From a virus: a stretch of 25,721 bases of DNA. The notes beneath the pieces are model-generated. The model ran no database searches. It was not told where the DNA came from and saw only the letters and a list, made by a program, of their open reading frames with translations. Location: the IMG/VR virus record IMGVR_UViG_3300030104_001217, positions 1 to 25,721 of that record, one strand, 5' to 3'. A program made the position numbers and the translations under genes. Of this stretch, positions 21,626 through 25,361 are shown piece after piece (the stretch's first letter is position 1; the number at the start of each line of letters is the position of its first letter).

Positions 21626-23542
21626 TTAACTCCAATTATCTAAATCCATATTACTAGGTTCGTACCCTGAAAAGCTAGGACTATAATCGTACCCTAACTC
21701 TGCAAAGCGTTCCTTCTGCATTCTTCTTATGGCTCTCATTGGAAACCAACTAGCCATAACTATGTCAGTTTTTGTACCCACTGTCTTGCTTTTATTTTTA
21801 GCAGAACTAAAATACACCAACTGACTTGTATATAAGTTTACCTTCTCTTGTGCCTCAAAGCTAAGATATGGCAAAGAAATATTTTTTTCTTGAAACATTG
21901 GTCGCATAGCTGTCACACCATACAATGGGTCAAACTTGTTCTTAAATGTTTCGTGTCCTTCTAAAAATATACCATGACCTGATGCAAACTCCCTAATACT
22001 TTTATCTTGTCGTATTGCTTTCTGAAAACCATTTTCTTCTATAACCCAGTGTGACAAATTATACTTCATCCACCATTGTTTAATAATGTCTAGTGCTTGT
22101 GGAATACCACCACCTAAAGAGTTGTTCATATCTACCATGTGCAATTTATTTTCTACAGGTTCGTATGCCCACAAGAAAGCTGCTTGATAACCTGTAGATG
22201 CAGGGTCTAATCCTGCAATCAATCTTGTACCATGTGGTATGTGTCCTATGTCACGCTTTTGGTCACGACACTCTTCTATTTCTACTCTGTCAAATAATGC
22301 AAGTCCATCAGGCATAGCAACATTTAGATATACCATTTCGTATATAGCTCTACCACCTGTAGTTTCTGCTGCTCTTTTTCTATCCATTAACCATTTGTAA
22401 GTTCTTTTACCAGACCACAACATGCAATCTACATGTTCATCTTCGTTCCAGTCAGGTAAATTACAACCTGTGTCGTGTGCTTCTTCTACAATAGTTTTCC
22501 AGGATTCGTTGTCTAGCAAATGTGAATACAGGTCATCATAATGTTGCCTAGAACCAATAACAACCATAGCTGTATGTTCCTCTTTACGACTAGACAGTGT
22601 TGTTGTCCACCAACTCCTAGTGTTTTCTCTTGATGCAGGTTGCATAGTAGAAGTATGGTCCTCAATGTCATCTGCAATAATTAAGTCACAGTCACGAGAA
22701 AGTATCTTACCACCACGACCAATGCCTACCATTGTTGGTGACTTTATACCTGTCACTGTTCTAGTTCCTACAGTAAAACCACTTTGTGACCAAGACTTAC
22801 CTGTTCTTGTTGTAGGTTTAAATTTAGGTCCTGGTCCACATATTTCCTCTATTAACAATTCATTACTTTCTAGTTGGTCAAGTACAGAACCTATTGCATT
22901 CTTTGCAATCTCTTCGTTACCACCAACCCACAAAATACGAATGTTAGGTTTTGTGCAAATGAGCCACACTGCAAAATGTATAAGTAAGTCTGTCTTACCA
23001 TGTCGTGGAGGTGACAATATCATTTGTTGGTCACCATTTTCTATAGCATCTAAAATAGAGTTAATCCACTTAATATGAAAATCTGGTGTTTCGTATGGTT
23101 CTCCTGTTTCTGTTTGAAAATATCTATCTCTAAAATTACTAAAATCTTCTAATGATTTTTCTGCAACCTGTGGTAGTTCCCATTTGTCTTGTGCAGCTTT
23201 TGTTTCTAAATCTTGTAAGTATGCGTTGTATGCCATAGATACAGCACCAACAGTTGTTCCTAATATTTTTGCTACATCTGTTAATGTATTTTTTTCTTTT
23301 AAAATTTCTGCAGCTAAACCTGATTCAACAATGTCGTTGTAAACTTTACCTCTGCGTGATTCAACATTTTTACTAGGTATAGATAATTTTTTTTCTTCTT
23401 GTGTCCACTCTAAACCTTTATCTTTAGCTCTTTTCTTTTGCATCTTAATTCTGTTAGAACATCTATCGCTACAAAATTTTGACCTTCCTTTTGGCAATAC
23501 CCTATGACATCCTCCTGCGTAACATAGTTTATTTTTTTCCAT
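21626..23542 (-). CDS. terL: Terminase large subunit with N-terminal zinc finger and HTH
   Basis: TerL is the ATPase-nuclease that packs DNA into the prohead. In these 638 residues the N-terminus carries four cysteines (C7, C12, C24, C28) in a zinc-finger arrangement with a basic helix, then a helix-turn-helix-like segment (TLTDVAKILGTTVGAVSMAY, about 86-105). The ATPase has a Walker A-type SPPRHGKT (177-184) and Walker B DLIIADD (286-292) with E294. The RNase H-like nuclease has D446 in LIAGLDPAS, E502/E503 in VIEENGF and D593 in TDIVMA, as expected for the acidic metal site. No separate small terminase gene is seen nearby, so the N-terminal DNA-binding parts may replace it. The start at 23542 has no good SD and overlaps a zinc-ribbon reading frame by 14 nt, next to an A7 run. 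Confidence 0.93.
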   Translation of the reverse strand: MEKNKLCYAGGCHRVLPKGRSKFCSDRCSNRIKMQKKRAKDKGLEWTQEEKKLSIPSKNVESRRGKVYNDIVESGLAAEILKEKNTLTDVAKILGTTVGAVSMAYNAYLQDLETKAAQDKWELPQVAEKSLEDFSNFRDRYFQTETGEPYETPDFHIKWINSILDAIENGDQQMILSPPRHGKTDLLIHFAVWLICTKPNIRILWVGGNEEIAKNAIGSVLDQLESNELLIEEICGPGPKFKPTTRTGKSWSQSGFTVGTRTVTGIKSPTMVGIGRGGKILSRDCDLIIADDIEDHTSTMQPASRENTRSWWTTTLSSRKEEHTAMVVIGSRQHYDDLYSHLLDNESWKTIVEEAHDTGCNLPDWNEDEHVDCMLWSGKRTYKWLMDRKRAAETTGGRAIYEMVYLNVAMPDGLALFDRVEIEECRDQKRDIGHIPHGTRLIAGLDPASTGYQAAFLWAYEPVENKLHMVDMNNSLGGGIPQALDIIKQWWMKYNLSHWVIEENGFQKAIRQDKSIREFASGHGIFLEGHETFKNKFDPLYGVTAMRPMFQEKNISLPYLSFEAQEKVNLYTSQLVYFSSAKNKSKTVGTKTDIVMASWFPMRAIRRMQKERFAELGYDYSPSFSGYEPSNMDLDNWS

Positions 23543-24249: not shown

Positions 24250-24277
24250 TTTATCTCCTGTTGTTGCTAAATCTTAT

Positions 24278-24307
24278 AATAACACAAAACTCCACCGAAG
24301 TGGAGTT
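24278..24307 (-). terminator. Intrinsic terminator in the late leader
   Basis: On the minus strand an 8-bp perfect stem (AACTCCAC with GTGGAGTT) is capped by a TTCG loop closed by C-G, the stable UUCG tetraloop, and is followed by TTGTGTTATT after the stem's own TT. Read on the plus strand the loop is CGAA and no T-run follows, so it works leftwards. It lies about 40 nt before the first late gene, with a candidate promoter upstream, so it could act as an attenuator or a target for antitermination. Confidence 0.72.
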
Positions 24308-24403
24308 CTGTTATATACAGTGTCCAAACTGTTATGAAAGAAAAATAAAATACACAAATCATTTAACTACAAAGTCTTATGATTAGCTGTCTTTCTTTTT
24401 CTA

Positions 24404-24442
24404 ATTGTGTACCTCTACACAATACCTAAGACTTCCTTAGGT
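24404..24442 (-). repeat. Two contiguous hairpins in the late leader
   Basis: ATTGTGTA/TACACAAT (8 bp, 4-nt loop; 24404-24423) is directly followed by ACCTAAG/CTTAGGT (7 bp, 5-nt loop; 24424-24442), with no base between the two stems, so they could stack end to end. Neither has a T-run after it in either direction. Placed within the predicted leader RNA. Confidence 0.55.
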
Positions 24443-24506
24443 GTAACCACTATAGTGTTGTCCAGGCACAAAGTGCAAAAAAAATTTTTTATATTACCAA
24501 TAGTAA

Positions 24507-24526
24507 ACCCTCTGTTGCCAGAGGGT
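24507..24526 (-). repeat. GNRA-capped hairpin in the late leader
   Basis: ACCCTCTG and CAGAGGGT form a perfect 8-bp stem. On the minus strand the loop is GCAA, a GNRA tetraloop; on the plus strand it is TTGC. On the minus strand it is followed by TTACTATTGG, so termination is weak at best. A stable stem with this loop favours an RNA role on the minus strand. Confidence 0.55.
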
Positions 24527-24541
24527 CGTACTATACAAACA

Positions 24542-24608
24542 AAGAAAGGAGGGCTATGAATATTGTCTAAGCAACCAGAAGGTTGGATAAAGACTTCATG
24601 CCTTTCTT
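24542..24608 (-). repeat. Long interrupted hairpin at the predicted 5' end of the late transcript
   Basis: Arms pair in order: AAGAAA with TTTCTT, GGC with GCC, ATGAA with TTCAT, GTCT with AGAC, and CAACC with GGTTG around a 4-nt loop, separated by small bulges (GGAG, T, TATT) and one internal loop. It spans 67 bases and begins within a few bases of the start site predicted from the upstream -10. The plus strand of the bulge holds an SD-like GGAGG and a 4-codon reading frame, which I do not regard as a gene. Confidence 0.55.
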
Positions 24609-24616
24609 GTAACAGA

Positions 24617-24643
24617 AGTATAGCATAAAGTTAAATTAATCAA
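24617..24643 (-). promoter_or_regulatory. Candidate late promoter
   Basis: The minus strand has TGCTATACT (extended -10) at 24625-24617 and TTGATT (4 of 6 to the -35 consensus) at 24643-24638 with 15 bp between the hexamers. This is the same layout as the promoter before the scaffold gene (TGTTATACT, 15-bp spacing). Transcription would start near 24610 and run into the late genes. A hairpin (24644-24662) lies directly upstream of the -35. Confidence 0.5.
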
Positions 24644-24745: not shown

Positions 24746-24754
24746 TGCTATAGT
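24746..24754 (+). promoter_or_regulatory. Possible extended -10 element, rightward
   Basis: TGCTATAGT matches the extended -10 pattern on the plus strand, with no good -35 upstream. Transcription would start near 24761 and run rightward through the repeat region; no gene begins until 25389. It could make a small RNA or a long early leader. Low confidence because the motif is short. Confidence 0.25.
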
Positions 24755-24766
24755 AGAGAAACAAGC

Positions 24767-24800
24767 AAAGGATTCTTCCTGCTTTTAGAAAAGGATTCTT
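24767..24800. repeat. Direct repeat AAAGGATTCTT, two copies
   Basis: The 11-base sequence AAAGGATTCTT occurs at 24767-24777 and 24790-24800, 23 bases apart (about two helical turns). Such spacing puts both copies on the same face of DNA and suits a protein-binding site pair. It lies in the gene-free control region. Confidence 0.5.
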
Positions 24801-24838
24801 GACCATTAACAATAAAGAAAGTGGATTAGCAGGACCAT

Positions 24839-24880
24839 GGTAACTGGGGTTAAAGCCCATTACTTCACATTGTTAAATGT
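24839..24880. repeat. Two small hairpins in the control region
   Basis: GTAA-C-TGGG pairs with CCCA-TTAC (24840-24863, one bulged C, 7-nt loop), and ACATT pairs with AATGT (24867-24880, 4-nt loop). No T-run of terminator type follows either in either direction. The stretch 24720-25000 contains no gene that I can support. Confidence 0.4.
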
Positions 24881-24950
24881 TACTGATTTTAGTTCATTCT
24901 GGTTTTTGGGAGGGAGTGACACAGGGTTAGCACCATCAATCTTTACATTT

Positions 24951-24973: not shown

Positions 24974-25004
24974 TAAAGTTACCTTTACTAGCAATTAGGT
25001 ACAC

Positions 25005-25031
25005 TACTATATATAGTACCTCTATATAGAG
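25005..25031. repeat. Two adjacent perfect palindromes
   Basis: TACTATATATAGTA (14 bases, 25005-25018) and CTCTATATAGAG (12 bases, 25020-25031) are perfect palindromes separated by one base. GTAC tetramers flank them (near 24999, 25016, 25031 and 25061). Two dyad sites side by side suggest binding of a dimeric regulator or a melting region of an origin. Confidence 0.55.
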
Positions 25032-25062
25032 TACCCCTTAACAGCATATATTTAGAGGGTGT

Positions 25063-25097: not shown

Positions 25098-25201
25098 CTA
25101 TATGTTGTATGTCCAGTAAAAACACTACATCTTGTGGTACTATATGTCGTGGTATTGACTACATACATACACTATATGTTGTGGTACTACATCTAGTATG
25201 A
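25098..25201. repeat. Iteron-like 15-base repeats
   Basis: Related units of the form ACTAYATSTYGTGGT occur at 25124 (ACTACATCTTGTGGT), 25139 (ACTATATGTCGTGGT), 25171 (ACTATATGTTGTGGT) and 25186 (ACTACATCTAGTATG), with a partial copy at 25098 (CTATATGTTGT). Copies at 25124/25139 and 25171/25186 are head-to-tail with exactly 15-base periods; the two pairs are 47 bases apart. They lie 130-260 bases upstream of the rightward promoter. This arrangement is typical of iterons of a replication origin or of operator arrays. Confidence 0.6.
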
Positions 25202-25332: not shown

Positions 25333-25361
25333 TTGACAAGATATTAGCTATGGTGTATAGT
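25333..25361 (+). promoter_or_regulatory. Strong sigma70-type rightward promoter
   Basis: TTGACA (25333-25338, exact consensus) and TATAGT (25356-25361, 5 of 6) are separated by exactly 17 bases, the optimal spacing. Transcription would start near 25368, 20 bases before the GTG start of the next gene. This is the best promoter match in the window and probably drives the early operon. Confidence 0.82.

Follow-up and report, generated by a model that had tools for sequence, protein, structure and literature searches.

In a marine phage contig, the late (minus-strand) and early (plus-strand) genes diverge from a gap of 1.1 kb, which probably contains a separate gene for a small RNA, ending at a terminator of its own, and after it the promoter of the late genes. 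Judging from the sequences of the contig and its relatives, the late-strand part of this gap would be a string of short minus-strand units, not one long leader. In this arrangement, two promoters, PL1 and PL2, would make short RNAs, and the PL2 product, a candidate small RNA that we call sL, would end at a UUCG-capped intrinsic terminator. The terminator would thus form the 3' end of sL and insulate the late operon from upstream transcription, and a third promoter, PL3, would start the late mRNA 20 nt ahead of the first late gene. Bypass of the sL terminator would not be needed, because a conserved promoter past it would start the late genes afresh.

The window, that is, the whole stretch of DNA that was analysed, is a viral contig of 25.7 kb (25,721 nt; IMGVR_UViG_3300030104_001217), whose late genes lie on the minus strand. 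Among deposited phages, the relatives of its terminase are only distant (~25% identity); in IMG/VR, close relatives of the window number in the hundreds. These relatives are a family of uncultivated marine phages, and the group is widespread. For each element, as many as 112 distinct relatives were aligned; these relatives share ancestry, so the counts given below do not represent independent events. From this comparison we read promoter conservation, covariation of helix P1 of sL and of the terminator, the strand on which the latter acts, and the way in which the first late gene begins; start sites and termination are predicted. A DNA search of the region against 50,697 phage records gave no match, a search of Rfam 15 at gathering scores and at permissive thresholds gave nothing credible (the best hit was istR, with 25.8 bits where 45 are required), and literature searches found no comparable phage layout. 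The features are listed in Table 1.

Table 1. Features of the window, with coordinates given in the direction of the feature where it was so recorded
Feature	Position	Strand	Details
Major-capsid match	967-2085	minus	
Hairpin downstream of capsid gene	950-911	minus	adjoins TGCTATAGT
nc2	2774-2605	minus	extended -10 TGTTATACT, then conserved RNA; upstream of a 154-aa gene and the capsid gene
Terminase large subunit	21626-23542	minus	
First late gene	24249-24178	minus	23-aa very basic peptide MPNKPGKKKKRYSSKRKSKSMGY; Shine-Dalgarno AGGAG 24259-24255
Promoter PL3	24284-24276	minus	extended -10 TGTTATTAT, overlapping terminator end; -10 hexamer 24281-24276; predicted start ~24269
Intrinsic terminator	24311-24284	minus	12-bp stem, UUCG loop, tail TTTTGTGTTAT
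Candidate small RNA sL	24442-24284	minus	~160 nt, predicted PL2 start to terminator
sL P1	24442-24424	minus	
sL P2	24423-24404	minus	
sL P3	24402-24339	minus	
sL P4	24332-24317	minus	invariant loop UGGACA
Promoter PL2	24490-24449	minus	A6T8 tract 24490-24477 (UP-element-like), weak -35, -10 TATAGT 24454-24449; predicted start ~24442
hpC	24534-24500	minus	GNRA-capped hairpin; z -5.9 against shuffles
hpB	24610-24541 (or 24608-24541)	minus, uncertain	5'-terminal hairpin of PL1 transcript; contains CCCUCCUUUC
Promoter PL1	24643-24617	minus	TTGATT 24643-24638, extended -10 TGCTATACT 24625-24617; predicted start ~24610
hpA unit	24731-24652	minus	extended -10 TGGTATTAT 24731-24723, then hairpin
nc1	24761-24935	plus	extended -10 TGCTATAGT 24746-24754; start ~24761; pseudoknotted, strongly conserved
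Iteron-like palindromic units	25003-25032, 25124-25153, 25171-25200	both	six units of ~15 bp, ACTAnATnTAGTGGT-like
Early-gene promoter	25333-25361	plus	strong, sigma70-like, TTGACA-17-TATAGT

The terminator was recovered by a pattern scan and is much more stable than shuffled sequences (z -6.6). It has the properties of an intrinsic terminator, namely a GC-rich hairpin followed by a T-rich tract, and its structure is conserved: none of the 12 pairs is broken in any of 32 relatives, four show two-sided changes, and three vary between A-U and G-U only. The UUCG loop is found in 61 of 81 relatives, and TTTTGTG is retained in nearly all. Since G-U pairs outnumber A-C combinations by 111 to 2, the terminator functions as minus-strand RNA. 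Efficient termination at 24284 is predicted; the U-tract (UUUUGUGUUAU) is imperfect, so that part of the transcription from PL2 probably passes it, perhaps under regulation, and could contribute some late RNA.

Directly past the terminator, the PL3 motif TTTTGTGnTAnnnT (TGnTAnnnT) is present in 79 of 81 aligned relatives, with fixed positions 99-100% conserved and free ones variable; the window contains it only once. A -35 is not recognisable for PL3, and the place where one would be expected falls inside the hairpin. The same pattern, with invariant -12T, -11A and -7T, is shared by PL1, PL3 and the promoters of hpA and nc1.

The start of the first late gene, which in relatives usually encodes a short, very basic peptide, provides evidence on where PL3 acts. 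Of 93 distinct relatives, 39 have the ATG 1-9 nt after the PL3 -10 and no Shine-Dalgarno sequence; in the other 54 it lies at 18-28 nt and a Shine-Dalgarno sequence is invariably present. Mixed cases do not occur. The leaderless genes mostly begin 6-7 nt from the -10, which is the normal distance from a -10 to +1, and those inspected at 1 nt carry a second in-frame ATG at 7. This split between leaderless and Shine-Dalgarno starts indicates that transcription begins 6-7 nt past the -10, and since the former start at about +1 and the latter always combine a longer leader with a ribosome-binding site, it identifies PL3 as the promoter that serves this gene. In eight genomes that lack both the terminator and PL3, an upstream TGnTAnnnT promoter after the A/T tract runs straight into a Shine-Dalgarno sequence and the same basic-peptide gene. 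About ten more genomes, in which no terminator was detected, are organised in other, unclassified ways.

An earlier sequence-only reading of this DNA had proposed a promoter at 24643-24617 followed by a leader with a 5' hairpin, a GNRA-capped stem, two stacked stems and a UUCG-capped terminator. The promoter is present and is conserved in 56 relatives, and all of the structures lie near the places given for them, are more stable than shuffles and are supported by relatives; the conservation of the stems, which that reading had suggested checking, was confirmed, with covariation in P1 and the terminator. The list of elements was nevertheless incomplete, since PL2, inside the leader, and PL3, just past the terminator, had been overlooked.

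PL2 was aligned in 109 sequences, in which the A/T tract is mostly 95-100% conserved and the -10 reads T99 A99 T78 A93 n T97 (percent conservation); in the window, the hexamer is present but lacks the TG. The RNA that would run from PL2 to the terminator folds into five helices (z -6.0), and the whole 362-nt leader is likewise more stable than shuffles (z -6.3). P1 shows two-sided changes at all seven of its pairs (32 relatives). The formal covariation test covered P1 and the terminator, as P2 varies in length and misaligns; here 99.7% of cells are paired, 11 of 19 pairs show two-sided changes, and 0 of 500 shuffles match this result. These data favour what the sequence-only reading had offered as its fallback, that the region may make a small RNA. 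sL as a transcript that exists and acts as a separate molecule is a candidate, and the likeliest guess at its role is that of a trans-acting or protein-binding RNA. Like phage small RNAs with intrinsic terminators, it would combine a sigma70-like promoter of its own, a folded body and a terminator; it differs from them in having no credible Rfam match and in belonging to a cluster of several structured RNAs.

Upstream of PL2, the extended -10 of PL1 (TGnTATAnT) has fixed positions that are 95-100% conserved in the 56 relatives (T and G, then T, A and T, and the final T, all at 100%), while the free positions are not conserved and the base n is random. hpB begins no more than ~8 nt from the start predicted for PL1 and folds as a single long hairpin; its energy is -18.7 kcal/mol, compared with -9.3 for shuffled versions (z -3.9). 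Which strand encodes it is uncertain, because the fold is slightly better on the plus strand. hpC keeps its GNRA loop in 91 of 109 relatives while the stem letters change, and its minus strand is the better fold in 61 of 69 (p 1.6e-10). A TATAGT ahead of hpC was considered as a promoter and dropped, being less invariant than the other promoters and part of a covarying stem. In several relatives (L058, L007, L011 and others), an ORF of ~34 aa, Cys-rich and zinc-ribbon-like, lies between hpC and PL2; its ATG follows TGCTATAGT by 6 nt, so that it is leaderless, and it is absent from the window.

The sequence-only reading took the terminator for a switch, by attenuation or antitermination, which transcription would have to get past to reach the late genes. 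This is not supported, given the conserved extended -10 directly past the terminator; that reading had itself named a promoter between 24249 and 24278 as evidence against a switch, and the start predicted for PL3 falls there. Regulated attenuation would mean that PL2 transcripts pass the terminator under some condition (a metabolite, a protein or translation coupling) and raise late expression, with sL as the sensor. A folded domain and an intrinsic terminator just before a gene are the standard layout of riboswitches and attenuators, and this is the layout observed here. We consider attenuation unlikely, however, in view of the dedicated promoter past the terminator, the eight genomes that manage without a terminator, and the lack of an Rfam match. 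Moreover, in 60 genomes neither terminator arm shows excess complementarity to its own upstream RNA (-6.04 and -5.40 kcal/mol, against -6.19 and -5.42 with that of other genomes); as the arms match their own upstream RNA no better than that of others, no competing antiterminator is seen.

Antitermination from PL1 through the terminator, whether Q-type or put-type via hpB, appears most improbable, although the layout resembles both known systems. As in the lambda system of PR', 6S leader RNA and tR' with Q, a late-strand promoter would yield a short RNA ending at an intrinsic terminator before the late genes, and as with putL after PL, a hairpin starts almost at the promoter. In a Q-dependent leader, no separate promoter for the late genes follows the terminator; here PL3 serves them, which renders antitermination unnecessary. 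The Q binding element sits in the late promoter, in the spacer from -35 to -10 (PMC6606751), and the corresponding spacers of PL1 and PL2 are free of conserved or repeated elements. A scan of 20 early proteins from relatives, with profiles that may overlook such proteins, gave no match to an antiterminator family, Q included; the window itself lacks the early region. Antitermination by put acts through the zinc-binding domain of the RNA polymerase beta' subunit, and a put RNA would be expected to be conserved wherever read-through depends on it. Like the put RNA of HK022, hpB would be a folded element with which a phage transcript begins, just past its promoter; put RNA, however, is ~70 nt long with two stem-loops and is found on early operons (PMC9378689), whereas the single hairpin hpB, in a region without a DNA match to phage records, is often undetectable. 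In particular, it has no match in 41 of the 97 genomes that carry the terminator, which also speaks against the cis-acting role that had been suggested for it. It is also quite unlikely that the hairpins serve a long transcript mainly as processing or stability elements, as in T7 (for example, as RNase III sites or as protective structures at its 5' or 3' end). Their positions directly after and directly before promoters, and also downstream of the capsid gene, where some variants lack a T-tract, would suit such a role, but it does not account for the retention of TTTTGTG at the terminator or for the invariant unpaired loops of sL, such as that of P4, which mere processing sites would not need. 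A separate small-RNA gene followed by a late promoter remains our preferred reading.

Other structured RNAs lie nearby, and nc1, hpA and nc2 have no match in Rfam. The outer stem of hpA covaries around an invariant loop, GUUUCCUCCUUUC (also given as CCUCCUUUC), which is complementary to Shine-Dalgarno sites. hpA is optional, and its extended -10 is absent in the aligned genomes without it; one relative (L063) carries it in inverted orientation. CCUCC loops directed against the Shine-Dalgarno sequence are known from alphaproteobacterial sRNAs, for example a rhizobial sRNA (PMC10746234); the hpA loop could likewise pair with Shine-Dalgarno sites, but hpA differs in sequence, stem and setting, so that this is a resemblance only.

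On the opposite strand, nc1 was found at 178 loci. Its 10-bp stem covaries and carries a CCUGCU loop that is able to pair with AGCAGG further downstream; 15 of 28 pairs show two-sided changes in 31 sequences, G-U pairs outnumber A-C by 214 to 3, and in 92 of 93 cases the plus strand gives the better fold. The 22 matches of the nc1 pattern in bacterial genomes were in unrelated organisms and were judged to be chance. nc2 is apparently doubly pseudoknotted, with ACCC/GGGU and AGGUC/GACCU in one knot and GGUCUUG/CAAGACC, CUACUG/CAGUAG and an A-rich linker in the other. In the hairpin downstream of the capsid gene, the stem varies and the loop keeps UCCACC. Because this hairpin also stands next to a TGnTAnnnT in 79 of 80 relatives, the module of a hairpin followed by an extended -10 recurs in this phage group. 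An N4-like virion RNA polymerase using hairpin promoters was rejected, as neither of the two giant proteins matches a polymerase family.

The iteron-like units between nc1 and the early promoter are likely operator sites of some regulator. Small early HTH proteins of two relatives (L095:5685-5954 and L198:4811-5116) are weakly similar to sigma factors and late activators, and are candidate regulators of the promoters in the gap.

As far as can be judged from comparative sequence evidence, the gap appears to be built from promoters and terminators that are ordinary in themselves but unusually densely packed, together with small-RNA families that are new. It is conceivable, if doubtful, that sL, the opposite-strand pseudoknotted nc1 and the CCUCC-loop hairpins able to mask ribosome-binding sites form a compact set of several new trans-acting RNAs that would direct the transition from early to late expression or translation in the host. 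At least two covarying RNA families, sL and nc1, are new, with start sites predicted precisely enough for testing, and the split between leaderless and Shine-Dalgarno starts is useful support for promoters from sequences alone. Each terminator hairpin would also be the upstream edge of the next promoter, a way in which a tightly packed phage may keep its units apart.
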